Assembly: GCA_027604665.1 (NCBI GenBank)
Contig: JADGIZ010000004.1
Coordinates: 1,722 to 65,721 of the forward strand
DNA: 64,000 bases
Source of the DNA: Polyrhizophydium stewartii
Taxonomy: Eukaryota > Chytridiomycota > Chytridiomycetes > Rhizophydiales
Reading direction: 5' to 3'
The notes beneath the pieces were generated by a model. The model saw only the letters and a list, made by a program, of their open reading frames with translations. It was not told the DNA's origin and searched no databases. The translations under genes were made by a program, and so were the position numbers. The stretch's first letter is position 1. Each line of letters opens with the position of its first letter. Below are positions 3,012 through 54,673 of the stretch, piece after piece.

Positions 3012-3131
3012 AAGCGGCGGGTGTGGCGTAGGCGAAGGCCGGCCACTCCGCGACCGGGGCCCCCCTAAGGGGGGCCCCCCCGGATCCTTCAGATCCGGGC
3101 CTCAGAAGAGCTTCTGAGGCGACGTCGCGGC
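3012..3131. repeat. GC-rich multi-hairpin element, inverted partner of 1024-1143
   Basis: It reads as the reverse complement of the element at 1024-1143 over nearly its whole length, with a few base differences in the terminal module (GCGGGTGTGG here against CCACACCAGC there). Long inverted repeats of this kind are expected to promote rearrangement. Confidence 0.8.
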
Positions 3132-4080
3132 CGCGATTAGCCACCAGTCGATCCTATGGATCGATTAGATTCACTTATTAGCGTTTTACTTAATCTATTT
3201 TTGGTATATCTAATAAGTAGATCACGTAACCACAAATGCGTACGCACTTTTGAACGGCTAGACCATTTCAGGTTTGACTTTTATTTATCCTGAGTCTTCC
3301 ATTATTGAGTTGATGGTTGTATAACTATCCCTGATCCAGCTGAGCTTATATTTAGAATTAGTGACTACTTTGGAGCTAATTATAAAGGGAGCAATCTTAG
3401 ATTGCTTTCATAAACTAATTATCGAGCCTTTAGCTTGTTACATTTAATTGCTCAGCTTACCTGTATCCAGTGAAGCTTAGAATTGAACTTGACATCTTAA
3501 ATCGCGACGCCCCCGAAGGGGGCCCGCTCCCTTGAGGAGCGGTGCTTGACAGTTCTAAGTTGAGGAGCCCATCTGGGATCTGGTAAAATAATTTGTAATG
3601 GTGGCTTTTCTTTGACCTTCCATCTTAATTATTAGGTTTACGCTTCATCGACTTTAGTCGATTAACAATTAAAGCATGCTGATAAGTGAAAGCGGCTAGC
3701 TAGGCGCGAGCTGACGCTAGCGATTTTATGTAAGGTTCAATAATACTAAACAATTGGTTATGATTCCAACTAGAGTTGACTAAGTCAACTTCAATGAAGT
3801 TAGGGTCAATTCGGATAAACGAATTCCCGCCTCCGTCGCTAGGAGGCGGCAATTCTAAAATAGGTTAAAGCGGCTGGTGTGGCCGGCCTTCGCCTACGCC
3901 ACACCCGCCGCTAAAAGTAATTGATGGCACGTTATACTATCGCTAATAGGTAGGTGAAGATAATCGATCTAAGCCTTTAGCTCGATCCATTTATCATCCA
4001 TAGATTTGGGTAAACAAATCCCGCTGACGCGGTGATTTTAGAGATTCGTGAATAACAAGTCAAAAGTCCAAGTAGGTACT

Positions 4081-4127
4081 AATCACGCAGTCGCGGAGCG
4101 ACCGCCCTACGGGCTACGTCGCTCAAA
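4081..4127. repeat. 47-base GC element, intergenic copy
   Basis: The string from AATCACGCAG to GTCGCTCAAA is base-for-base identical, over 47 positions, to 23505-23551, where the same element sits inside a cox1 exon. It contains the hairpin arms GTCGCGGAGCGAC and GCCCTACGGGC. A third, truncated copy starts at about 38228 (AATCACGCAGTCGC). This copy lies in non-coding DNA and shows that the cox1 insert is a mobile unit and not divergent coding sequence. Confidence 0.85.
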
Positions 4128-6487: not shown

Positions 6488-6754
6488 CTAATGTAGGAGA
6501 AAGGACAATTCATGGACTTAAGTTGATGAATTCACTTTAGTATCTGAAGCTAGTAGCTTGCTGGTTAGATAGAAAACTGCAAAGCAGTTGTGGTTTATTC
6601 AATGTCTTCCAGCATAGAGTGAATTAAGGGTGCGGCTACTAATCTACCGCAATAATCATTGTAGCAGCTGTGAAGTAGGTTCCCCGTAGACTGAAGCGGC
6701 TCCGCGATCATCATCTTTTGACTTACTAGCGTTTGATTGAAGATTTATCTCAGC

Positions 6755-7334
6755 TCAACCTTCAGGTATTAGATGGCTTTTAGCTAGTACTAACTCTCGT
6801 ACTTGACACCATTTGATGAAAGCATCAGCTTTGATAATACGGAGTGGGAATTGTGTGAAGTAGTTAACAATTGAGCCTAGTGCTACAGCATCGTAACAAT
6901 AGACTCCATTAGTCCCATTTCGTAAGCTTACTGAACCAGTGTTAAAGAGTATCATAACGATAGTTAGAACAGCCTCATTCTTCTGATCTAGAATGAAACG
7001 AATAAGTACTTGGTAACCTAATTTGTATGAGGCACGTGCCAATTGTAGTAAATGAACCTTATGCATCAGTGAAACCAGATAGCCATCCATTAGACAATGT
7101 CAATATTGCAGGAGTAGCACTGAATACAATATCAATACCCCGTGATGCTAGCACAGTCATCCAAGATGAGAACTGTGAAAACGATGCTGTAGAACTAGGT
7201 AAGGTGATTGATGTAATATCTTCTACAATATAGCGATAAGCGTTTACACCTTTGTCAAACCGGACATCACGAATGTGTAGTAAAATAGCCTGTTTGTACT
7301 GAGTAAGAAGTCATACGCCGTTTGGCTTATTCAT
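6755..7334 (-). pseudogene. LAGLIDADG homing endonuclease, interrupted
   Basis: An ATG at 7334 opens a frame with an N-terminal half-domain (AYRYIVEDITSI resembles the YRV.. segment that follows a first LAGLIDADG motif). The second motif follows as WLSGFTDA-[TAA]-GSF, where the stop replaces the acidic residue before GSF (7059-7061). After a frameshift near 7030 the rest reads well: ASYKLGYQVLIRFILDQKN, then GVYCYDAVALGSIVNYF and FPLRIIKADAF, the typical second half. It ends at TGA 6755-6757. The family cuts intronless alleles and spreads group I introns. With a stop at the active-site residue and a frameshift, this copy is probably non-functional. No flanking exon was recognised. Confidence 0.7.
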
Positions 7335-9765: not shown

Positions 9766-11429
9766 CCTTATTTATCGTTATTAGCGTTAATTGCTTTCTT
9801 TGTCTTAATTAGACTTATTTGGTAGGTATAGTATCATATTTATTAATTAATTTCTGGTTTACTAGTATAATAAATAATGTTTCAGCTTTAAAAGCTGTAT
9901 TTATTAATAAAATAGGGGATTGGACATTAATATTAGGTATAGCATTAACTATTGCATTATTTTCAGATTTAAGTTTTTCGACCTTATTTTCATTAGGTTA
10001 TTTATTACATGGTGATTGTTTATATCTTTTAACATTATTTTTTTTCATAGCTTGTATATCTAAAAGCTCTCAATTTACTTTTCATACTTGGTTAATTAGT
10101 GCTATGATGGGTCCTACTCCTGTATCTGCTTTATTACACTCAAGTACTATGGTCATTTTAGGTGTATACTTTTTAATAAAATTAAGCCCTTTATTAGAAT
10201 GGGCTTCAGATATTTCCATGCTATGTGTTTTTTTTGGTAGTTTAAGTGCTTTATTAGGTGCTAGTTGTGGTTTAATTGAAAATGATATTAAAAAAATTAT
10301 TGCTTATTCTACAACTTCTCAATAGGGTTATATGATGGTTGCTTGTGGTTTAAGTCAATATAATATAGCTATATTTCATGTCGTCACTCATGCTTTTTTT
10401 AAATCTTTATTATTCTTATCTGCAGGTGCTATTATACATGCTTTAACTGATGGGCAAGATATAAGAAAAATGGGTAGTTTAATATTATTTTTACCACTAA
10501 CTTATCTTGTTTTTATTTTAGGTAGTTTATCTCTTATAGCTTTTCCATTTATGAGTGGGTTTTATTCTAAAGATTTTTAGTAGTCTCTTTTATTAATCCC
10601 TCATAATTTTACACATTCTTTTGCTTTCTTTTTTACTTATTTTGCTGCTATATTTACATCTATATATTCTATACGTTCTTTATTATTAACTTTTCTAGCT
10701 AGACCTCATTTCCCTCGTACTAATTTAGAGTTAGGTATTCATGATTCTAATTTCTTTATGTCTTTTCCACTTTTTATATTATCATTAGGTGCTATATTTA
10801 TTGGTTATTTAACTCAAGATCTCTTTTTAGGTTTTGGTAATGATGTTTTTCATAATTCTATTTTTGTTCATCCTAATAATTTACGTCTTTTAGATGGTTC
10901 TTTATCTTCAAGTAATCCACAACTTTCAATTGTTCTTCTTCTATTATTAGGTCTTTAGCTACTATTAGTCCCTATCTCATAGTCATCCAATTTATCTGGT
11001 GCAAATTCTTATACTTTTAGAGTCCAAAAATTCATTTCAACTTCCACAGCTCCATTAACCTCTTCTCCTTTTCATTTCTTTTCTTATCACTAGTTTATTT
11101 TAAATCATTTTAATATTTAGATTCATTGGATCATGGTTTATTCAGCAATAACATCAATTATTATTTATCGTTATTGGGATCGTGGTTTATTAGAATTATT
11201 TGGTCCATTAGGTATTATGCGTTTTATTCATTTTTTAAGTTTCAAAATTGAGTTATTAAGTTCTGGCTTTATTTTACACTATCTTTTCTTATTTTTATTC
11301 TTCTCGATTTTAAGTTTATTGATTTAGAGTTTAATCTTATTATCTGGATCTTTAAGCGGCTACGCGATGTTTTCAATTAGTTTCGCATTTGCTTTACTTT
11401 TATTTATATTTTTCAATTTCGTATTTTAA
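9766..11429 (+). CDS. nad5: NADH dehydrogenase subunit 5, 5'-truncated, TAG read as Leu
   Basis: Core membrane subunit of respiratory complex I and part of its proton-pumping arm. From 9819 the protein shows [46 protein letters not shown]-[TAG]-[25 protein letters not shown] and [10 protein letters not shown]. These are hallmark segments in the right order, including the His and Lys residues of the channel. TAG occurs at 10323, 10578, 10581, 10956, 10980, 11091, 11118 and 11325 and once more upstream of 9819, in places where leucine fits. The frame closes at TAA 11427-11429, giving about 535 codons. The N-terminal roughly 100 residues are absent. Upstream residues ([12 protein letters not shown], from 9766) sit one frame off, and about 10 expected residues before VGIVSYLL are missing. 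The 5' edge abuts a GC hairpin. Identity is very secure; whether the gene is functional is unclear. Confidence 0.9.
11352..11366 (+). repeat. Mini hairpin AGCGGCTACGCGAT inside nad5
   Basis: This short GC hairpin recurs in non-coding DNA at about 5052, and variants occur at about 5768, 6692, 12500, 16100 and 39207. Here it lies in frame near the 3' end of nad5 and would be translated as SGYAM after the otherwise hydrophobic C-terminus, lengthening the protein without breaking it. Confidence 0.6.
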
Positions 11430-16670: not shown

Positions 16671-17142
16671 TTATCTATAGCTTAGGGGTTGTTGCTTATC
16701 AATCAATGAAGCTCGAAGCATATAATCAATTTTGAGGCATGGCTAATCAAAATGCCAATAATATATAGCAAAATCTATACCCTAGGCGTGTGTTGTTGTT
16801 ATTGAATCATTTTTTATTCTCTACATAGCTATTGTAAGCATTATTACACCTACCTATACATGCTAAAAATGTAAACCAGTCTACATATAAAATGTAGTAC
16901 CAAAAGCATTATCTGCTATTGTAAAACCACTGGTAATATATTCTGTATATTGTATAAATAAGAAAACCTAACCCTATAAAACGGATAATAGGAAACCTAA
17001 AATAGCATAAGCTTTATCACCAGAACGTAAAGCTTCATGACCTTCTGTTAAAATTCTATAAAATAGTGGTACCTAATAAAGGCTATCCCCAAGGATCTAT
17101 TGCTGCAATTCCTAATGGCTATATTGATAAGATAAACGAAGC
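16671..17142 (-). CDS. cox3: Cytochrome c oxidase subunit 3, 3' exon, C-terminus lost
   Basis: Minus-strand reading gives PLGIAAIDPWG, [TAG]-PLLGT, TEGHEALRSGDKAYAILG, then FIQYTEY, FTIADNAFGTTFYM-[TAG]-TGLHF-[TAG]-HV-[TAG]-VGVIMLTIAM and finally IYYWHF. This is the cox3 core in order, and at least seven in-frame TAG codons fall at Leu positions. Cox3 is a membrane subunit of complex IV. Two defects are visible. Near 17058 about 11 bases are missing where ILLSSGA is expected, which shifts the frame. After WHF the conserved VDVVWxFLY ending is absent; an unrelated tail of about 25 residues runs to TAA 16671-16673. The tail may be an undetected intron boundary or a truncation. The 5' exon is at 19656-19927. 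Confidence 0.85.
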
Positions 17143-17225
17143 TAAGATTCATTAAGGGCTTCCCGAGTTGCGAATAGTAGATGGTAATATTATTAAACTT
17201 AAGCAATAGTATAGTCTAAGCCCCT

Positions 17226-17489
17226 TTACCTTATAATGGCGGTGCATACGAAAATTACTATAATTATTACGACAAGTAAGCCAATACAAACAAGGCTAGC
17301 ATAAGCAATACAAGCCTTTTGGCTATGACTAAGCAATAACTCTAATTCGCATAACACAAAAATAGGCAAAAGCCAATACTATAGCTACGAGAAAATTATG
17401 TATTTCACATAGAGACCACCTAAGCTATGGAACTGCCTTATCCTCGATAATTTAGTTATGGGTTTGATTAGGTAGCAGGATGACGTCAT
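17226..17489 (-). CDS. Small hydrophobic ORF of unknown function in the cox3 intron
   Basis: With TAG as Leu, an 87-codon frame runs from ATG 17489 to TAA 17226-17228. The first about 30 residues are polar. The rest is strongly hydrophobic, with IIFSLLLYWLLPIFVL followed, after a short polar hinge, by SLVCIGLLVVIIIVIFV, suggesting two membrane helices. I recognise no family; it is not atp8, nad4L or nad6 by motif. It may be chance coding within an intron, since AT-rich DNA easily gives such residues. Confidence 0.25.
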
Positions 17490-18535
17490 GCCAAGGCTTA
17501 TCTTTTCAATTTTTATCTAATAATCTGGCCTTAATTGTTAAAGCGCTCAATAATAAATAGAATTGCTAAAGTAAGAAAGCCTATAATAAATAGTATTCTA
17601 ATAAGGATAAGAAGCCGTGTCGAATGGTTCTTCCAAACCATAATAGATAAGCAGGTTATCCGCTAACATATTATACATTCTACCCCTTATTGTCAACCCC
17701 ATAACCTTTAGGCCTACTAAGCATAAGCGGAATTTTAAGAATAATTATTTATTATTATCGGTTATATCTAAATTATAGACTTTAGCATAGGATAAATAAG
17801 CAAATATCTAAGAATAGCCTAATCCATATATGTGGAAAGTCGTTGAGGAGAATACAGTATAAGAAGTAAGACCTATCATACGCGATTAGACCGATAACCT
17901 GCTGATCCAAAGTTCCAGCATTTGATCATTTAATTTTATAGGCCCCCAAGAATTTCTTTTTATATGGCTTAAAATTTATTTTATTAAGATCCCTTAATGT
18001 CGACCTATGTGCATATCGGCTAAATATAATGAAGCCTTCCAATTTAAAATGTGGGCATGTCTATATATGTTAAAAAGTCTTATAATCACCACTCTCTACT
18101 CTTAAATAATTTGACGGCATGCTACAATACATAAAATCTTTTTTAGCTAAGCTCCCCGCTATTTATTAAGCCTATATAAGCTTTAGCACAAATTAATTTT
18201 TAATAATGAACACGTTTAATTATAAATTGACGGCTGTTAGAAGTAGTAACAAAAATATAATGATTGACGAGCATATGCGGCACCAGTACTTTCATAAATT
18301 GACACGTCGCAGTAAGATTAGTAAATTTATTCAAGACTTCCGATGGATTAGTCACAATAATAGTATAGAACGAGCTTCACCCGCTTTAGCACTTCCTATT
18401 GCCGCTAATTCAGCTGATGGCTAATTACGTCAATTTTTATTATATAAATGCGCCGCCCATTATTTTAATTTAACTACTATTTAGCTTTAACAACTTCAGA
18501 AACTAAAGGTGATATAGTCGATTTATTTAACAGCC

Positions 18536-19245
18536 TTAGTAATAAATACTAGCTAGAACAGTACCAGTATCCAAATATTTAGAAATAAGACCGATAGTAA
18601 CACCTAACGATTTTGATAGTTGTTTAAGACTTGGAAATTCAGCAACTAATTCGTTATTAGTGGTATATAAAGCAACAGGTGTAGCCACTTGATTTGTATT
18701 GTATAATGGTAAAGCAGGATAGAATTCTGGTGTATTATATAGTAAATATTGTGCTTTAAATAAACTTATACTGTTTATAAAACGACTAAATTTGCTAGCA
18801 TCGTGACCTAACCAGTTAGCGGCATCGAATAATGAATTAGCTTTATACTATAATTCACCAGCCTTATTCTAAATATATATCTAGCTATAGCTATTAGGAT
18901 CCTATGTAAAATAATTAGGATTATTCTTGATATTGTATCATGATTCATAATGTTGTAGCTTTAGCTATCTATATTTAATAAATCAGTTTAAGAAATAGCG
19001 TCAAAAGTTTCCAATATATAAAATGAATCATAAAATGATTAGAACCTCGGGCTATAATACTGGTGTTAATCAGAGAAACTAAATTATTTGTATTACGAAA
19101 ATGTTGACTTAATCTAGTCGCTAGATCCATTGATTGGCCAATATAATATTTTCCTTAATCATCCTAAATTAAATAATATCAGTTACGCCTATTATTAAAG
19201 CAAATGCTTCTAAATTACTAGGAACCGAAACTGGTGGAGAATAGC
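18536..19245 (-). pseudogene. GIY-YIG homing endonuclease in cox3 intron, frame-broken
   Basis: The minus strand reads YLILDD-x-GKYYIGQSMDLATRL (the GIY..YIG catalytic core with its Arg), then NHFMIHFIL, LETFDAIS, TDLLNID and YESWYNIKNNPNY, and a C-terminal NUMOD/IENR1-like repeat: FDAANWLGHDASKF, then VALYTTNNELVAEFPSLKQL and SLGVTIGLISKYLDTG. That is the family's normal domain order (nuclease, linker, DNA-binding repeat). It ends at TAA 18536-18538. Three one-base frameshifts (about 19170, 19015 and 18963) are each repaired by adding one T beside a TA. TAA codons also occur near 19157 and 18993. It would normally cut cox3 alleles lacking the intron. As DNA it is broken. Confidence 0.75.
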
Positions 19246-19655
19246 TATATATATATTACCCTTAAATTGGTAAAACCATTACAATTTGACGATTAGAGTT
19301 AGCTGTTGTGAATGACACGATCAGACATGATAATATTAAATGCTACCTAAAGCTATATACAACTAGCATACTATACTTATTCAAGTTCGATATTAAATAA
19401 ATTTGTAAGATTGAGGCCTAGTAGCTCCGATTTGGACTGCTGGACTTAATGATGAAGAAAAAAAGGCCCAAAAAACCTATAAAAAATTTGGCAAGCACAG
19501 ATCCGCTGTATAATAGGCAAAATAAGTAGACTATATTATAAAAATAGTCGTTGAGGAGTACCAATACATAATCCTGCTTATTTTTTATATTATTAATAAG
19601 CATATATTTTCTTTAATACCATATATATCTTAATAATAGCGAGGACAAGAGATTA

Positions 19656-19927
19656 TCCAAAGAATAACATAATTTCAGAGACAACAAATAATAAGAATCC
19701 TCTTTGTACATAATTTGTATGTAAACCTCCTTTACCTTCTATGATTAGATCTCTAAACCATTGAATTGCGATTAAAAACATCTAAACAAATGCTGATAAT
19801 TCTGTTGATAACCAGTAATCCAACTAACTATAGTTACAGCTACACCTAAAATAGATAAAGATATCTATAAAGGCCATGGAGAAACATCTACTAAATGATA
19901 TGGATTCACATAATTAGATTTTTTCAT
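19656..19927 (-). CDS. cox3: Cytochrome c oxidase subunit 3, 5' exon
   Basis: ATG at 19927 opens MKKSNYVNPYHLVDVSPWPL-[TAG]-ISLSILGVAVTIVSWITG, the cox3 N-terminus (HPYHLVDPSPWP) and first membrane helix. It continues as LSTELSAFVLMFLIAI, QWFRDLI, GLHTNYVQRGFLLFVVSEIM and LFFG. The exon ends about 19656, where the intron begins. One frameshift lies at 19808-19813: ACT GGT TAT should read ACT GGT TTA, so one T is missing. Everything else is in frame and well conserved, which makes old decay unlikely. The 3' exon follows at 17142-16671. Confidence 0.85.
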
Positions 19928-21831: not shown

Positions 21832-22002
21832 TTAATCGAGATTAGAATTATAGAAGGTAGCTCTTACTTGTGATTTCGTAGCAAGTGCTGTAAAGGCTAG
21901 AATATATAAGAATATTAATACAGATATAACGGTTAATATTGAACCTGCTGACATAATATTATTCCAATCAGCATAACCGTCTGGATAAGCTGGAATACGA
22001 CG
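21832..22002 (-). CDS. cox1: Cytochrome c oxidase subunit 1, last exon
   Basis: It reads RRIPAYPDGYADWNNIMS, then AGSILTVISVLIFLYIL and AFTALATKS, matching the universal cox1 ending (PRRIPDYPDAYxxWN, helix XII). The frame closes with TAA 21832-21834 after NLD, so TAA is a stop in this genome. The 5' splice edge is uncertain; the frame remains open upstream as EYLAYL. The preceding exon ends HFLGLA at about 23385, and the intron between them carries a GIY-YIG gene. Confidence 0.88.
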   Translation of the reverse strand, partial: RRIPAYPDGYADWNNIMSAGSILTVISVLIFLYILAFTALATKSQVRATFYNSNLD

Positions 22003-23384
22003 CTAATAAGCTAAGTATTCAATAGACTATGTCATATAATAAGTAAGCTTAGCTGCTAAATAACATATCATTAGCGCTTAATATTTTACCTTTATAGTCC
22101 TTAAGCTTTAGAACTAAAGAGTGTTGGCTAAAGCTGCTAAATAGATTAGGAATGATTAGATTTTAGCATAATAATAAATAAGGTTTTATTTTAAATGTCC
22201 CGATTAAGGCATACCGGCTAACAATATAAGAAAAATCTAGATTAAGCTTATTTAGTCTAATCTTCTGACCAACCAACGTCCCATAATAAGTTTACCAGTT
22301 TTTTAAACCGTAGCAACAGCGCCCGATCTAATATTTAAAAAGCGAGCAACCGCAGATAAACTATCGAATAAAGTAACTACGCCGGTCAAAGTGTCAGTAA
22401 CGGAATAAGAAATAGATCCCATTGCTGCGACAAACTATTTAGCACGACCAAACATAGGATTACCACTACCTTTGCGAGAGACACTTAATCGAGTTTTCAT
22501 TTTCTCATAATGAGTTCTATCGTAAAAAGGATTATTATAGCCTTAAAAAAGGGTATTGACATATCGGCTGACTAACGTCGGTCAAGGGCAGCGTTTTGCA
22601 TACGCTCAATAGACTCCGGAGTATGTTTAAATCCGGAGGGACCTGAATTAGCTCTAAAAATATTAAAAAGGAAAGGACAGCTAGCCTAATAAAAGTCCTC
22701 AGCCTCTCTCTAGTCGTCAGCTAGGACTTCTTTGGTTGAACCCTAAATATCCTAAATAATAAAAGCGAATTGGTCTAAATCATACTTATTCAATGAATTC
22801 TTAAAATGTGAATTGCAAATAACAGAAGGACGAATAGAAAGATTCACTGCTCTACCAACATACATAAGACCTGAAGCTAAGCAAATAAAATTATAAATAT
22901 CTGAAACGTTTTTAAGGTTAGACTTAGTAAAATCTAAATCCTTCTTAGCATTAGGAACAAAAAAACTAAGGATCTTTAGTAAGGTCAAAACGTTATTTAA
23001 TTGTATTCAAAGTAGGAATAAGAGGCTAGCAAGCGATATAAAAGTTCTAATTCTCTAAAAAAAAGAAAATAAGATCAAAATAGGACTAAAGATTAGGTCA
23101 TGCACTAAATAGATTAAATTAGCTAGCTTTTTCGATGGATTTGATCTTTGTACCACATCTGGGTTAATTTAATATAAAATCTCTAGGACTTATATAGCAT
23201 CGTCGAGGTAGGGTAAAAGACCTACTTAATTGTAAGATGGCCGATGTTGAGTAGAAATCAGCAAATTATAGTTTTGATGGCGGCGATAAATACAAATAAC
23301 TTCAAGATCGTTAGAGCAGAGCCTTGCGAAAACGCTCAGAAAATAGTCAAAATATTTTGCTTATAATTAAATTTGAAAAGGGCC
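22003..23384 (-). other. cox1 intron in the HFLGLA / RRIP region
   Basis: It separates exon codons for FFPMHFLGLA and RRIPAYPDG, a frequent group I insertion zone in cox1. It encodes the GIY-YIG protein at 22252-22988. A string reading LLAGMP at about 22205 looks like the missing cox1 GMP, but it is not contiguous with either exon. Confidence 0.65.
22252..22988 (-). CDS. GIY-YIG homing endonuclease in cox1 intron
   Basis: The start is ATG 22988. The N-terminal nuclease core includes DIYNFICLASGLMYVGRAVN followed by LSIRPS. The linker with NUMOD3-type motif reads SGPSGFKHTPESIERMQNAA, then YNNPFYDRTHYEKMKTRLS and RKGSGNPMFGRAK. The C-terminal NUMOD1/IENR1 repeat reads YSVTDTLTGVVTLFDSLSAV then ARFLNIRSGAVATV. 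TAG codons (for example DI-[TAG]-GSTKE and DD-[TAG]-REAEDFY) read as Leu. Stop TAA is at 22252-22254. There is one frameshift near 22540, where GCTATAAT should be GCTTATAAT, and one internal TAA at 22303-22305 where Leu or Ile is expected. Function: site-specific DNA cleavage that spreads the intron. It is nearly intact, more so than its cox3 counterpart. Confidence 0.78.
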
Positions 23385-23577
23385 TAGCTAAACCCTAGAA
23401 ATGCATTGGGAAGAATGTTACATTAATCGCTATAGTGAATAAAATAAAATGAATAACACCCCATTCTTCATTATATTGATAACCTGTAATTTGACCTACC
23501 CAATAATCACGCAGTCGCGGAGCGACCGCCCTACGGGCTACGTCGCTCAAATCCTGCGAATATTGCATAAACCGCCA
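23385..23577 (-). CDS. cox1: Cytochrome c oxidase subunit 1, exon interrupted by a GC hairpin
   Basis: The exon reads AVYAIFAGF, then the 43-base insert at 23506-23548, then YWVGQITGYQYNE, EWGVIHFILFTIAINV and TFFPMHF-[TAG]-GLA. Both sides match cox1 around helices XI-XII (GAVFAIFAGFYYW, KITG, FFPMHFLGLAGMP). The insert falls between GGA TTT and TAT TGG and is not a multiple of three, so the DNA is not colinear with a normal Cox1. Apart from that insert the exon is undamaged. The upstream exon is the small one at 24904-24930. Confidence 0.88.
23505..23551 (-). repeat. 47-base GC element inserted in a cox1 exon
   Basis: Identical to the intergenic copy at 4081-4127. Its hairpin arms GTCGCGGAGCGAC and GCCCTACGGGC would fold in the message. 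It lies between the Phe codon of FAGF and the Tyr-Trp codons of YYW. Reading straight through would add about 14 residues (ERRSP-[TAG]-GGRSATA) and leave the frame one base off. It might be excised from RNA, bypassed by the ribosome as the byp elements of Magnusiomyces mitochondria are, or be a disabling insertion. Confidence 0.88.
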
Positions 23578-24903
23578 AGATGTTTAGAAAATTAACAAAG
23601 AAGACAATTCTGATAAGCTAATTTTATAATAGGACTCTATATTTATGTTATCTATAATTAAGCCATTCCGGTATGCTAATATAGCTTTATAGATACTATT
23701 AATGATCAAATTAATTCTAATGGGGCTCCCTATATCTTGAGAGTGTGGATTGCCGGATATATCGTAATCGAATAGTCCATATAAGAGCGACTTAGCGTTT
23801 GATAAGAAAGGCTTCTCTTAGTACGATTAGACCTTATCCCGAGTTATAATATAGCCTAGCGTTAATCTTTAATAATCAAATCCGCTTTACGAGTTCTATA
23901 TGGGGAGGCAGGGCTGGTTAGGTAAATTCTAATATAAAAATCTAATCGCATAGCGTAGCTGCCAAGCCTTTAAAATCTAATCTGATATTTATGCTTTATA
24001 ATAAATAGCCTTAAACAGTCTTACCGTCATAAATAAATAAGTCCTGGGGGTTTGAGCAGCTAATAAGCCTGTTTGTTGGATAAGTGTTGCTAAGCTTTTA
24101 TCTAGGCATCAACTTAAGCCCAAGCCTTATAAGTGATCAAATAAGCCGGATTGATATCCCAGATTATCAACGGGACGTATAGCTACACCTGGCCTTCGAG
24201 GTTAGAGATGGACGCCCATAATAAATCGCTAAATAAATAATTTTTTATCATTTATGAGCTTAAGCTAGATTGATAGATCTATATATATTCTCAAGCAAGG
24301 CGGTCTAAATTCAACTCGCTTTAATTATATGCTAAGTATTGATAAGAAAGGCTTTATTAACAATTTGATTTCGACTTCTTAAATAACTAAAGTTATATAT
24401 AGGCCAACGGATATCATACCCCATTTATATAAATGTAAAAAACCAATTACTTGTGCTTGGCGTAGCTTAAAGACAAATAGGGTTGAGCTTAGATAAGAAA
24501 AGCCAAGGATAAGGTAAGCAAACTTTAACAATAAAATTGATCATTAAATTTGAGAGACTACCACTTGATCCGAAATCCAGCTGATCGGTGACTAATTTTA
24601 GGATATCGATTTATTATTAAGCTGGCCATTAAGAATATAATTATAGAAGAGTCTCTGAGGTATTGTTTATTTTGGATTAGCTAAGCTACTTATATTCTAA
24701 AATATATATAAAAAAATAGAATAGCATCAATACCTGCAAATATAAGCTTAGTCCAGCTATAAGAGCGACTTGGCTTACTATCTATCGGTTACAATAATAA
24801 CGCATTTATTAAATTTTGTAACTATAATATTATTCGCATATAGTAATACGATTTAAAATAGGCGCGCCTAATAATTTAAAATTATATATATAATTATTAC
24901 TGC
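23578..24903 (-). other. cox1 intron after SMG
   Basis: About 1.3 kb separate the exon ending YVLSMG (24904) from the exon beginning AVYAIFAGF (23577), splitting the SMGAV codons. A segment at about 24560-24590 resembles group I core pairing (GATCAGCTGGATTTC on the minus strand). No complete endonuclease frame was recognised. Confidence 0.55.
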
Positions 24904-24930
24904 ACCCATTGATAATACATAATGGAAGTC
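24904..24930 (-). CDS. cox1: Cytochrome c oxidase subunit 1, tiny exon
   Basis: The minus strand reads DFHYVLSMG, exactly the conserved AHFHYVLSMGAV segment whose two His residues ligate haem and Cu_B; the first His position reads Asp (GAC) here, perhaps because the splice edge lies within that codon. Residues before it (NVGMNWSY) do not match cox1 and are probably intron. That leaves an exon of only about 27 bases between two introns, joining in phase to AVYAIFAGF at 23577. Confidence 0.7.
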
Positions 24931-27856: not shown

Positions 27857-28332
27857 TTACCATGACATATTAATAGACTAAATGATACCTCCTACTTGTA
27901 TAACCGCTATTAATGTTGTTAGGTTATGTAATGCATCATTATTTGTTTGATCGATATATATGTAGCTGTCGTGGAATGCTAAATCAATTGATGCTTGACT
28001 TAATATAAATTTACAAGAATAATATATAAAATATTTGTAATTATTTAAAGGGCGATCACTAAATAAAAAATTAATATAGGGTGTTCCAGAGCGTATTCCT
28101 TTTTAGCAGCAGTAATCCCGTTCAAAACATGTAATAAGATATTTTGTTTTTGCATCATAGATATAAATAGGAGATTTACTATGTGTAAGATGACGTATAG
28201 CCTCAATAAGAACAGCCCTTTCTATTGTACTGTTTATTCGATCCTCTGAATCGATTAAATTTGTTCTAAGAAGATAATTACCTCTAAATGTTTTATCATT
28301 ATCAAAATAAGAAGTAAGACTTAATATAGCTT
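27857..28332 (-). CDS. Unknown ORF, probably intron-encoded
   Basis: About 157 codons end at TAA 27857-27859, with one in-frame TAA after DYCC. Readable pieces are SYFDNDKTFRGNYLLRTNL, INSTIERAVLIEAIRHLTHS, SPIYIYDAKTKYLITCFERD and SGTPYINFLFSDRPL. The SPIYIYDAKTKYLITCF piece resembles the start of a NUMOD1 repeat (xPVYVYDxxTxxLIxxFxS), suggesting the C-terminal part of a homing endonuclease. I saw no GIY-YIG or LAGLIDADG motif. It lies upstream of the group I core at 27548-27775. Family assignment is tentative. Confidence 0.45.
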
Positions 28333-38180: not shown

Positions 38181-39554
38181 CTGATCAAAAATACTGAATC
38201 ATTAATCGTGTTATACTAACCTGATGACTAATCACGCAGTCGCATCTATCAAAAGGGTATCTGATAGTTAAGCTAAAATAGATGAGCCACTCTTTATAAG
38301 CTTCGTAAGGGCCCCGACTAATTTAATTAATTGCCAAAGGTAACCATCTACCGGCCGCTCAATGAGCGGCCTCCTCCTAATAATGGTGGGATATTTAACA
38401 TGGTATTAATCAATTACCTATCATTAAATATAGAATCTATACTGTGCTATGATATACTATTAATATAGGTATCTATTTTTCATTTCCTAGTAGCCGTAGA
38501 TCCAATTTAAATCAATAAGTCTTATATTCATTATTTATGGTAAACTCATTAGTACCATTATGACATTAGAAGACTTTTACCTATAGCACCTCCTACTTAT
38601 AATTTTGCTATACTTTAGGGTGCCGTACATAATTAAATTAAGATTTAACGTAAATTATTGGAAAACCTTGGAGCGGCATCCGCCGCGGATTGCAAACCAA
38701 TTTATTGAACCTAATCTGTAATATATTAGGTTTTATAGAAGATCATCGATCCAAGATCGATGTTCAACTTAAGCTGGTTGGGGACCTACTTAGAAATTGC
38801 AATAGTTTTAATGAATAAAGTGCCATATGATTAGTAGGAGTATCTATATAAACTAGGAAATTAATATTTCTATGAGGGACTCTATCTATTGATCGAGCAG
38901 AGTTCGTACCTATTATTGCCCTATATATGAATCTTATGATAATACTAATAAGTAAAAGAAATTCTAGCTTATGAGTAGAACTTATAAACGATAGCCTAGT
39001 ATAACATCCTAAGGGGCCGATAATTAGAAATAAATTCCAATGATGATTCTAGTAGATTACCTGATGTGGATTCTTAACTTCATCACTGGATAAACCTAAA
39101 TCATATAACCCTACCATTAAGCACCTAAAGCTTATTTAATATTGTAATGGAACGTAATGATTTATCAAGAGGACTCTAAATATATCGACAGGTTTTAGCT
39201 ATAATTAAGCGGCTCCGCGATTAAGGTCTTTTTAGATGAGCTACTAAAATAATTGATCTATATGATTAAGTGCCTAGTCGCGTCACTTGTGTATTCCTAT
39301 GATCGACTTAAGTCGATTGAGTTATTGGCTCATCGATCTACGATCGATCAATTTAAGTGATACTAGCACTTACAAACTATTGAGGAATTTATCTACAGCT
39401 GTGAATAGTCTCCTTAAGTTAAATGAAGATGAATTAGGTGGATCTACTTTCAAACAATCAGCGGGCCAGAGTACATTCAAACGTCATTGGCCTCCTCAAA
39501 GGCCTCGACGGCTTTTAGTATTCAGCTTATTCATTAGATAATTGGAATTCGGAG

Positions 39555-44370: not shown

Positions 44371-45981
<1,611 letters not shown>

Positions 45982-46071
45982 GCATTCCCAAGACTTAATA
46001 ATATCAGTTTTTGGTTGCTTCCACCTGCATTCTTGCTTTTGACTGCCGGGCTCTTTGCTGGCGGTGCTGGT
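45982..46071 (+). CDS. cox1: Cytochrome c oxidase subunit 1, exon 2
   Basis: [20 protein letters not shown] then [10 protein letters not shown] continues directly from GAPDM of exon 1; this is cox1 helix III. The normal next residues, TGWTVYPPL, do not follow. Instead the sequence runs into group I intron material, so the exon ends at GAG, another common intron site. The next cox1 exons that I recognise in the window are on the opposite strand at 24.9-21.8 kb and start far downstream in the protein. Confidence 0.9.
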
Positions 46072-46230
46072 CTTGTGCCAGAGAAGGTCTAAACCTTTTG
46101 TAGGACTTTACTATGTGCTGGAAAATCTTAAATATTGGATAATCAGCTGGAAACCTATTTAGGGATCCTCAGAGACTACACGTAAAGCAACTTATTTGAG
46201 TTGAAAATATAGTCCAAATAAAATAAACTT
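46072..46230 (+). other. Group I intron 2 of plus-strand cox1, no 3' exon found
   Basis: The core is compact: AATCAGCTGGAAACC (Q, 46141-46155), TCCTCAGAGACTACACG (R, 46166-46182) and AAATATAGTCC (S, 46205-46215). In such introns the 3' splice site normally lies shortly after the S strand or a P9 extension. No TGWTVYPPL-coding exon was found downstream as far as I could read. Confidence 0.75.
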
Positions 46231-49200
46231 TTATTTTTAAGACAAGTTTACGCTTGTCTATTCTAGAATCTAAATGCCTTAACCCTATGGTTCATGGTTA
46301 ATCAATAGTTAATTAAAGAGCATATTAATAGCAAAGTAAACCATTATCAATCTGTAAGTATAAATATCATTAGTATTAGAGTAATAATTAAGATATATAG
46401 TAATAAATGAATAAAACCAATTAGTCCCGATGGGCGCCCAGCCCAGAGGTCTGGTCAGATCTTTCCATGATAAACTATATATACTATTTTAATATATAAT
46501 AAAGATTAATAAATAAATGATAGTTCCGATGGGACCATGAGATGGTGAGGGTTCCTCCTGGACCATCAGGACAGGAGTCCCAATGGAAGTCACCATCCCT
46601 ACCCTGAGGTCCATGGGAATTATTCAATAGATTAGTAATGTTAACTATTGATACTTTATATTTATAATCCCGAGGTCCAGTCGGAACAATAAAGATCTGT
46701 GGTGAATTACCATACTATTACTACTTATCGTATGCTTTCCTTATTAGATCCTACATCTATTACTATAGATGGATGTTACAGATATTTTCTACTAAGATGA
46801 ATTAATATATATATGGTTATAAAGGTAAGTATGGTTCTTATTACTTTAGCATATCAATAACTAAATAAGTATTATCATTATAGATATATTAATAGGTAAG
46901 TTAATAAAGCCACTAGTAACATAAAGAGATGTACTTACTAATAATTTAACTGTGTGTAATAACAATAATTAAGGATCATCATCATGGAATAGTAAAGGAA
47001 AGTGTACCATTCTGCAATGTATTCAATACGATGCTAACGCAATCTTAATACTTAATAGATAATATCATATAAGATTAATAACTGTATAATATGGTATATT
47101 AGTATAAGTATGGGGTACTATGTACCCAGCTATGCTGAACAGTATTAACTATAACAATGATAATAATAGCTATTATCAATAATAAGATCCGAAGGCCAGA
47201 TTACTGATTACTTATAAACAGATTGTATCCTTACTACACTATCCAATGTATTAACTATTACTATCAATAAAGGCCCCCAAGGGGGGCCCCCCCATGGCCC
47301 GAGGTACATGAGGAACAAGATATATAATCAACAAGTACTTCATTATAAGGTATTAACTACCTGATAGGGGGGATATGTTTGAATTAGATGTAGTAAATGG
47401 ACATTATCAGAATTATAATGGTTAAGGTGGGTTGGTGAAAGCAATTATAGATAAAGTATTAATTCGTAGGTTTAAGCTGGTTAGGCAAAGTCTAAATAGT
47501 TAGTTATAAGGATAAGATATATTCTAATAGTTAGTAGTTCTAACCATAAGTCTATCATATTTTAATAGTGAGCTATAAGGATAAGGTATATTATATTGAG
47601 TTAGAATCATAAGTTCTATTTAATAATTAGTTCTAAATATAGGGTTTATTTAATAGTTAATTCAGCTATCTGGGAGTTAAATCATAGTTTAAGTTATTTA
47701 TTAGCTAATGAATTTCATAATAGTTTGAGTTCTAACATATTAGTTTAAGTCTAGTTAGATAAAGCTCATTATAAATCTTAATTTTAGTTAGAGTAGTAGT
47801 TATCTCTTAGTTAGAATCGAAGTAATGTGAAGGTTCAAGTTCAAATAATAGTCACAGTATAAGTTAATATCCAAGTAGAACATGAGTTCATCTTCATCTT
47901 TATAACCAGTTGTTCGAGTGGGTTAATAAATTAGATAGTTAATTATAAGTTGGCCAGAGTTAGATATAAGCTGCTGGTTATTGGTATAATATTTCTCACA
48001 TGAAACAGATTATTATTTACCCTCTAAGATTCATCTATTCTTATTATTAGTTACAGTAGTTACAGGAGTTTCAGTTAAATAATTAGTTAAAGTAATAAAT
48101 AGTTTAAATAGTTAAATCAGTTTAATTAGTTTCAATTTAAATCCGATTTATCACAATTTGGCTCTTCTATTTGACGCTAATTTATTCAATTATCTAGAAC
48201 TAAGATCTGTTTAGATTCTGCAATTATCTAGAACGAATATCTGCTCAGATTCTGCAAGTCTAATATAATCTCCATCTAATTCTAAGCTATTCATCTAATT
48301 TTGAGTCATGCTTCGCATTATAAGTTATTCTAATAACAGCTACTCAATAATTATTATTTTACCCGGATGATCATGTAAATTGCGAAGCACCGAGTAGAAG
48401 TAATCGGTATTAGTCGGATTCTGCCATGCCATTAACTAAATTAGATTATGATTACACATTAACTGAAATTGGGCATCAAAGATGCTATTTAACTAAATTC
48501 TATTCTAATCCTGCGATTAACTAATATTAATCTGATGATACCATTAAGTAATATTATCTTCTAATTATATCCTAACTAATATTATTCGGATTATAACTGC
48601 AATCGAGTTTAAAGTCTCCTTATAATTCTAAATATTATAATTTATACTGACTTTACATTTCGCCCCTCCGGGATAATTCTATATTAGAACTCATACTGAC
48701 TTTAGATTGCTATGATTAAGTATTAATATCTTCACCTACCTATATTATTATTTGCACATGTTGAATTAGGTCAAATTCCCCCGGCTAGCCGGTGTCTGAT
48801 CTCAGATCTCAAAAAAGGGCCCCAGGAAATGAATTTATTAAATATTTGTAATAATAAGTACTTATAGTTAACTAACATTAATAATATTATCATAATCTCT
48901 TTTAAATCATATGTGAGATTACGGATGGAATAAGAGTAAATAATAGATATGCTTACCTCTAATATAAGTTAAAATAGAGATTCAAGCGAAGCTTGGAGAG
49001 TATTAATTATAGATTATTGAAGCATAAAGCGTATACAATAAATAGAGTAAACAGTAGATATCGTATGGGTAAATAAGAGTAGGATATAATTAGATACTAT
49101 TTTTAAATTTGCTACCAATTTTTAGATTCCCTATCAATAATAGCCTTAAATTCTCATTGCGTCCCGTAGGTCCGGACCGATAGTAATAACTTCTAACTAA

Positions 49201-54223: not shown

Positions 54224-54320
54224 CGCTAGCGACGTCGCCTACGGCCCGGTGCTTTAAGCGCCGGTGGCCAAAGGCCGGTCGCGGAGTGGCCGGCCTTCGC
54301 CTACGCCACACCAGCCGCTT
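54224..54320. repeat. GC-rich multi-hairpin element, distant copy
   Basis: It starts CGCTAGCGACGTCGCCT and ends CACACCAGCCGCTT exactly like the copy at 1024-1143, but its middle stems differ (CCGGTGCTTTAAGCGCCGG, GGCCAAAGGCC). The conserved ends with exchangeable middles define the family and link this region to 1-3 kb. Confidence 0.8.
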
Positions 54321-54673
54321 CAAGCATGTAGAGAAAGTCTATTTGTAGTACCACAACCTGGATCTGCCTATATAATTGGGACTAATCACCTTATTCGGTT
54401 AGCTGGAGTGGCTACGCCACGGCGCGATTAAAGGTCAACTAACCACCTACTAATAAACCACCGCTATGCCGTTCCCTTCTAGCTACGTTCAATTTAGGCT
54501 TAGATAGGATGAAATAAATGGTAGATCCCGAAGGTAAAGATGTAGTTCTATAACAATGAATAAGTAGTTAAACCTTTGACATACGATCCGGTAATTCTAG
54601 GGGGACCCCGCTGCGGTTAATATTTGATAGCTTATTTTACAATTTTGAGAAATTAGATAAGTTGAATAGAAAG

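Follow-up and report, generated by a model that had tools for sequence, protein, structure and literature searches.

The 43 bases that interrupt a cox1 exon in this chytrid-type mitochondrial DNA are probably a non-autonomous, GC-rich hairpin mobile element, composed of a 28-nt module nested in a shorter repeat and lodged in a defunct 3′ piece of a second cox1. The organelle most likely relies on an uninterrupted cox1 of the type found on two other contigs (C29 and C98), so that neither splicing nor ribosomal bypassing would be needed. The window, by which we mean the whole stretch of 64,000 nucleotides that was analyzed, comprises positions 1722-65721 of contig C4 in an assembly (G000) of 12.86 Mb and 690 contigs.

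On the minus strand, VYAIFAGF (23572-23549) is followed by 43 nt (23548-23506) and then by YWVGQITG, the bases 23505-23386 being translated as YWVGQITGYQYNEEWGVIHFILFTIAINVTFFPMHFLGLA. The insert has a GC content of 70%, and its length, which is no multiple of three, breaks the frame between FAGF and YWVGQITG, as the preliminary description had stated. It is surrounded by cox1 residues 388-394 and 396-435, and one codon is absent beside it, since FYYW is the most frequent of the 12 commonest forms at this place among cox1 relatives. We rejected an intron as the identity of the insert by its size and by the Rfam group I result, with the only group I matches in the window at 45573-45924 and 46043-46234 and no catalytic core recognized at the insert; no hit to group II introns or other Rfam families reached the gathering score within the window. 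An assembly mis-join at the repeat is unlikely, because the flanks are neighboring parts of a single cox1 exon.

The insert belongs to a repeat that is slightly longer than first described: the identity to 4081-4127 is real and extends over 48 rather than 47 bases, and the partial copy placed at 38228 is present with an exact span of 38229-38243. The copies in the window are as follows.

23504-23551, plus strand: full copy of the composite hairpin element, of which 23506-23548 are the 43 bases interrupting the cox1 exon
4080-4127, plus strand: second full copy, identical over 48 bases
38229-38243, plus strand: partial copy, first 15 bases only
23519-23546, plus strand: 28-nt hairpin module nested in the element, found at 13 places in the DNA examined

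An 18-base core (up to 3 mismatches) occurs twice in the window versus not at all in 100 shuffles. Folded as RNA, 47 bases of the element are predicted to form two hairpins (-21.5 kcal/mol, z -2.4, equalled by 8 of 200 shuffles), and as DNA they reach -11.9 kcal/mol (z -2.7, equalled by 2 of 200). Dispersal is observed directly in the assembly, where a 14-mer from the left part of the element has 48 matches on 23 contigs and its reversed pattern none; a query of the 121 bases around the insert returned 17 matches, itself counted, and all 48 bases are identical in C4 (two copies), C467, C10, C42, and C98. A search of viral_contigs with a 20-base core of the element gave no matches.

Nesting is also a direct observation. 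Among 19 copies of a 12-mer of the host repeat in the DNA examined, 10 carry the 28-nt module, 1 carries a variant of it, 7 lack it, and 1 is truncated, and the 13 places of the module divide into 10 inside the host repeat and 3 elsewhere. Because the module is nested in a dispersed repeat that also exists module-free, the element is a composite. GTCGC flanks the module on both sides in all 10 copies within the host repeat and at one of its 3 other places (C61), but not at the remaining two; this pattern would fit insertion of the module at GTCGC without proving it. The outer ends of the element are variable and A/T-rich. We envisage that the composite element moved into the cox1 3′ fragment, and the earlier claim of a mobile GC hairpin lying out of frame within cox1 coding sequence is supported. 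The window also has long composite palindromes at 1027-1143, 2562-2700, 3012-3128, and 54275-54323, repeated in both direct and inverted orientation and up to 100% shared with other contigs. Neither the element nor the host genome was found in the literature searched, the accessible part of PMC6784888 included, which is no proof of their being unpublished.

We located the cox1 pieces on C4 by tblastn and with profiles built from 38 relatives, at a threshold of E < 0.02 that one reversed-sequence control also passed (1.9e-4), at a value near that of the weakest piece listed.

44371-44655, plus strand: 5′ piece of cox1, residues 1-95
45979-46071, plus strand: cox1 piece, residues 95-125
27953-28006, minus strand: cox1 piece ILSQASIDLAFHDSY, residues 358-372
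24886-24930, minus strand: cox1 piece DFHYVLSMGAV, residues about 378-389, without the His before FH
23549-23572, minus strand: cox1 piece VYAIFAGF, 5′ of the insert
23386-23505, minus strand: cox1 piece YWVGQITG...FLGLA, residues 396-435, 3′ of the insert
21844-22002, minus strand: last cox1 piece RRIPAYPDGY..., residues 439-491, without GMP ahead
6645-6680, minus strand: possible cox1 fragment TYFTAATMIIAV, placed out of order (residues 304-315; E 2.6e-5; reversed control 1.9e-4)

The minus-strand set thus spans 28006-21844 and residues 358-491 with gaps, and for residues 126-303 and 316-357 no match passed the threshold in a search covering 65,721 bases of C4 (total 65,766); a match of 10 residues near 9.2 kb, with an E of about 0.02, was left out of the count. 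Motifs were sought in 120 cox1 relatives (P0002-P0121), with the His pattern scored in 117 and GMP in 108. The His before FH, which we take to be the heme a3 ligand, is present in 117 of 117 relatives and missing from the window copy, which reads DFHY(VLS), and the GMP before RR, found in 84 of 108 relatives with like forms in the rest, is absent as well. These several defects are plainly visible, and the window cox1 piece is most likely dead and would not be used. The pieces are nevertheless stop-free under table 16 and up to 81% like their relatives, and two adjoining ones join exactly at the junction SMGAV / VYAIF; the window cox1 therefore either stopped working in the recent past or includes exons too small to be seen here.

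A second cox1 is present in the same assembly. C29 carries a 5′ exon (residues 4-131), and C98 carries residues 233-487 as four collinear exons on a single strand. The His, FYYW, and GFP are retained there and the insert is lacking, so that the C98 cox1 is an insert-free but divergent counterpart of the occupied site. Pieces covering residues 174-209 and 209-252 lie on C42 and C61 and, holding one TGA each, may be relics. Residues 132-173 of this other copy were not found in the assembly search, and no second copy of residues 209-357 was found in the assembly. The preliminary description had set its reading against an intact cox1 elsewhere: an uninterrupted exon over the insert place is indeed there on C98, but no complete cox1 was seen on a single contig. 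Judged from these sequences, the C29/C98 cox1 is more likely than the window copy to be the working gene, though incomplete as seen, and it would share one organelle with the window type.

The adjoining cox3 in the window is also damaged.

16752-19909, minus strand: second, damaged cox3 copy with frame changes, short losses, and about 120 nt inserted

An uninterrupted cox3 frame of 262 residues lies on C116. A nad5 copy at C42:12431-13466 (minus strand, L034) has many losses and frame changes, and in the frame read TAG accounts for 27 of its 60 leucine codons. Damaged mitochondrial gene duplicates are therefore not confined to the window cox1 and occur elsewhere in the assembly. The window itself holds a long open 3′ part of nad5 at 9822-11411 (plus strand), from about residue 141, with GC-rich sequence directly before it, and the N-terminal part of nad5 was not found in the window. 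An open nad2-like frame on C611 (L044:987-2351) includes a stretch rich in GC (as much as 73% over 30 nt), which is perhaps another element kept in frame. LAGLIDADG endonuclease frames over the Pfam cut-off lie at 6644-7144 (minus strand) and 44784-45443 (plus strand), and ARAGORN with the bacterial code found no tRNAs in the window.

We assign this DNA to a chytrid because the mitochondrial genes here read TAG as leucine and because of their protein relatives, the named ones high in the cox1, nad5, and cox3 lists being Synchytrium, Spizellomyces, Rhizophydium, and Blyttiomyces. TAG is also read as leucine in chytrid mitogenomes assembled in PMC6131824, in the accessible part of that paper. 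The GC content is 65-67% at three actin-family loci and 36-46% in 19 of 20 stretches around cox1 and the element, the remaining stretch, C42:1-10000, being mainly N. The 23 mitochondrial-like contigs with the 14-mer (C1, C3, C4, C10, and C98 among them) sum to at least about 0.69 Mb, counting full lengths for 9 contigs and the last match coordinate for the other 14; if all 23 belong to one mitochondrial genome, it would be large by fungal standards.

Within the window, GC clusters counted in 2-kb bins number 39 in 0-10 kb, 8 in 10-28 kb, 44 in 28-42 kb, and 23 in 42-64 kb. The trinucleotide distance outside clusters is 48 for 28.3-41.8 kb, which is typical (16 other stretches range from 52 to 94), and reaches 162 in 1-9.7 kb, 185 in 9.7-28.3 kb, 130 in 41.8-53 kb, and 246 in 53-64 kb. 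The parts at 9.7-28.3 and 41.8-64 kb are thus poor in GC clusters and atypical in trinucleotides within a cluster-rich contig. The simplest reading is a single pool of mitochondrial DNA whose segments differ in origin, with a resident hairpin having entered the cox1 relic of one of them; a chimeric contig is a possible alternative to the single pool. More tentatively, and with rather less than even confidence, we suggest a multi-contig chytrid mitochondrial genome of at least about 0.69 Mb containing mitochondrial DNA of more than one origin. Its alien pieces, which are poor in GC clusters and differ in codon usage and phylogenetic affinity, would be decaying relics that the resident nested hairpins invade, the cox1 insert being one such case.

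The atypical composition of parts of the window might instead reflect a mixed sample, with one chytrid contributing the C29/C98 cox1 and another contributing C4 or its atypical parts, in which case the interrupted cox1 could still matter to its owner. The cox1 of the window and that of C98 have 157 of 229 residues in common and lean, with weak support, to different chytrid groups in trees of 33 of the 120 relatives, and two conventional actin copies (C227 and C494) are 85% identical over 154 nt, being either paralogs or the genes of two organisms. Against this, GC clusters up to 139 nt long are 100% common to the window and other contigs, the element is identical in C4, C98, C42, and C10, and the damage to cox1 and cox3 in the window holds regardless of how many organisms were sampled, so that we regard a mixed sample as unlikely.

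The exact join at SMGAV / VYAIF, the nearby LAGLIDADG frames and group I introns, and the possible fragment at 6.7 kb would fit a scrambled, trans-spliced cox1, with tiny exons distributed over both strands and the larger ones alone visible. However, leucine codons differ between the strands, being TTG 11 and TTA 0 in the plus-strand pieces versus TTG 0 and TTA 6 in the minus-strand pieces (the 358-372 piece left out), and for this reason the two sets look to be of unlike origin and not parts of one gene, as judged by sequence. Third-position GC is 0.37 in 44371-46071 versus 0.19 in 21844-24930. With most of residues 126-357 missing and the adjoining cox3 damaged as well, trans-splicing is a highly doubtful explanation.

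A working cox1, from which the 43 bases are skipped by ribosomes in the manner of the Magnusiomyces byp elements or cut from the RNA, is very improbable: the coding sequence is conserved on either side of an insert that is no multiple of three and forms strong hairpins, but the exon on C98 is uninterrupted, the window copy has the further defects described above (His, GMP, and most of 126-357), and no matching take-off and landing codons can be assigned, since TTT precedes the insert and GAT is its last triplet. Such matching codons are also absent in several known byp cases (PMC5009743, in the part accessible). The element motif was not matched in 6,222 nt of coding DNA from six other genes or gene parts, which says little, because only about 0.5 matches were expected. 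Hence the proposal that an essential, working cox1 demands splicing or bypassing finds no support in a copy from which most of the protein's middle section and the His of 117 of 117 relatives are missing and which lies beside a damaged cox3, and, given the uninterrupted exon on C98 and the defective window copy, nor does that of a new class of interrupted mitochondrial gene.

Together these data remove a tempting case of ribosomal bypassing. They leave a family of modular hairpins whose nesting illustrates the merging and spreading of such elements, and they hint at either a transfer of mitochondrial DNA or its extreme expansion in a chytrid. Of more interest than the insert is the genome that houses it. 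By analogy, the element, which is GC-rich and hairpin-forming and has many near-identical dispersed copies, behaves as the GC clusters and double-hairpin elements of fungal mitochondrial DNA do. The double-hairpin elements of Allomyces, likened here by description from the accessible part of PMC2800124, are also short, dispersed, two-hairpin, mobile, and sometimes found in genes. Those within genes stay in transcripts according to that source; the element here differs in being built by the nesting of a 28-nt module and in sitting in a damaged gene copy. The Saccharomyces GC clusters, such as GC42, resemble it in being about 42-48 nt long, palindromic, GC-rich, and dispersed in AT-rich mitochondrial DNA, and their merging and shuffling have been described (PMC4478555, from the portion available). 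The target of GC42 is AG in that source, whereas no AG rule was seen here and the nested module is bounded on each side by GTCGC. The Magnusiomyces byp inserts are likewise short, frame-breaking, and located in mitochondrial genes, but, as far as the available text of PMC5009743 extends, they occupy 81 positions in 12 of 15 protein genes and are skipped in translation, whereas here a single insert was found, in one damaged copy of a gene whose exon is uninterrupted on C98.
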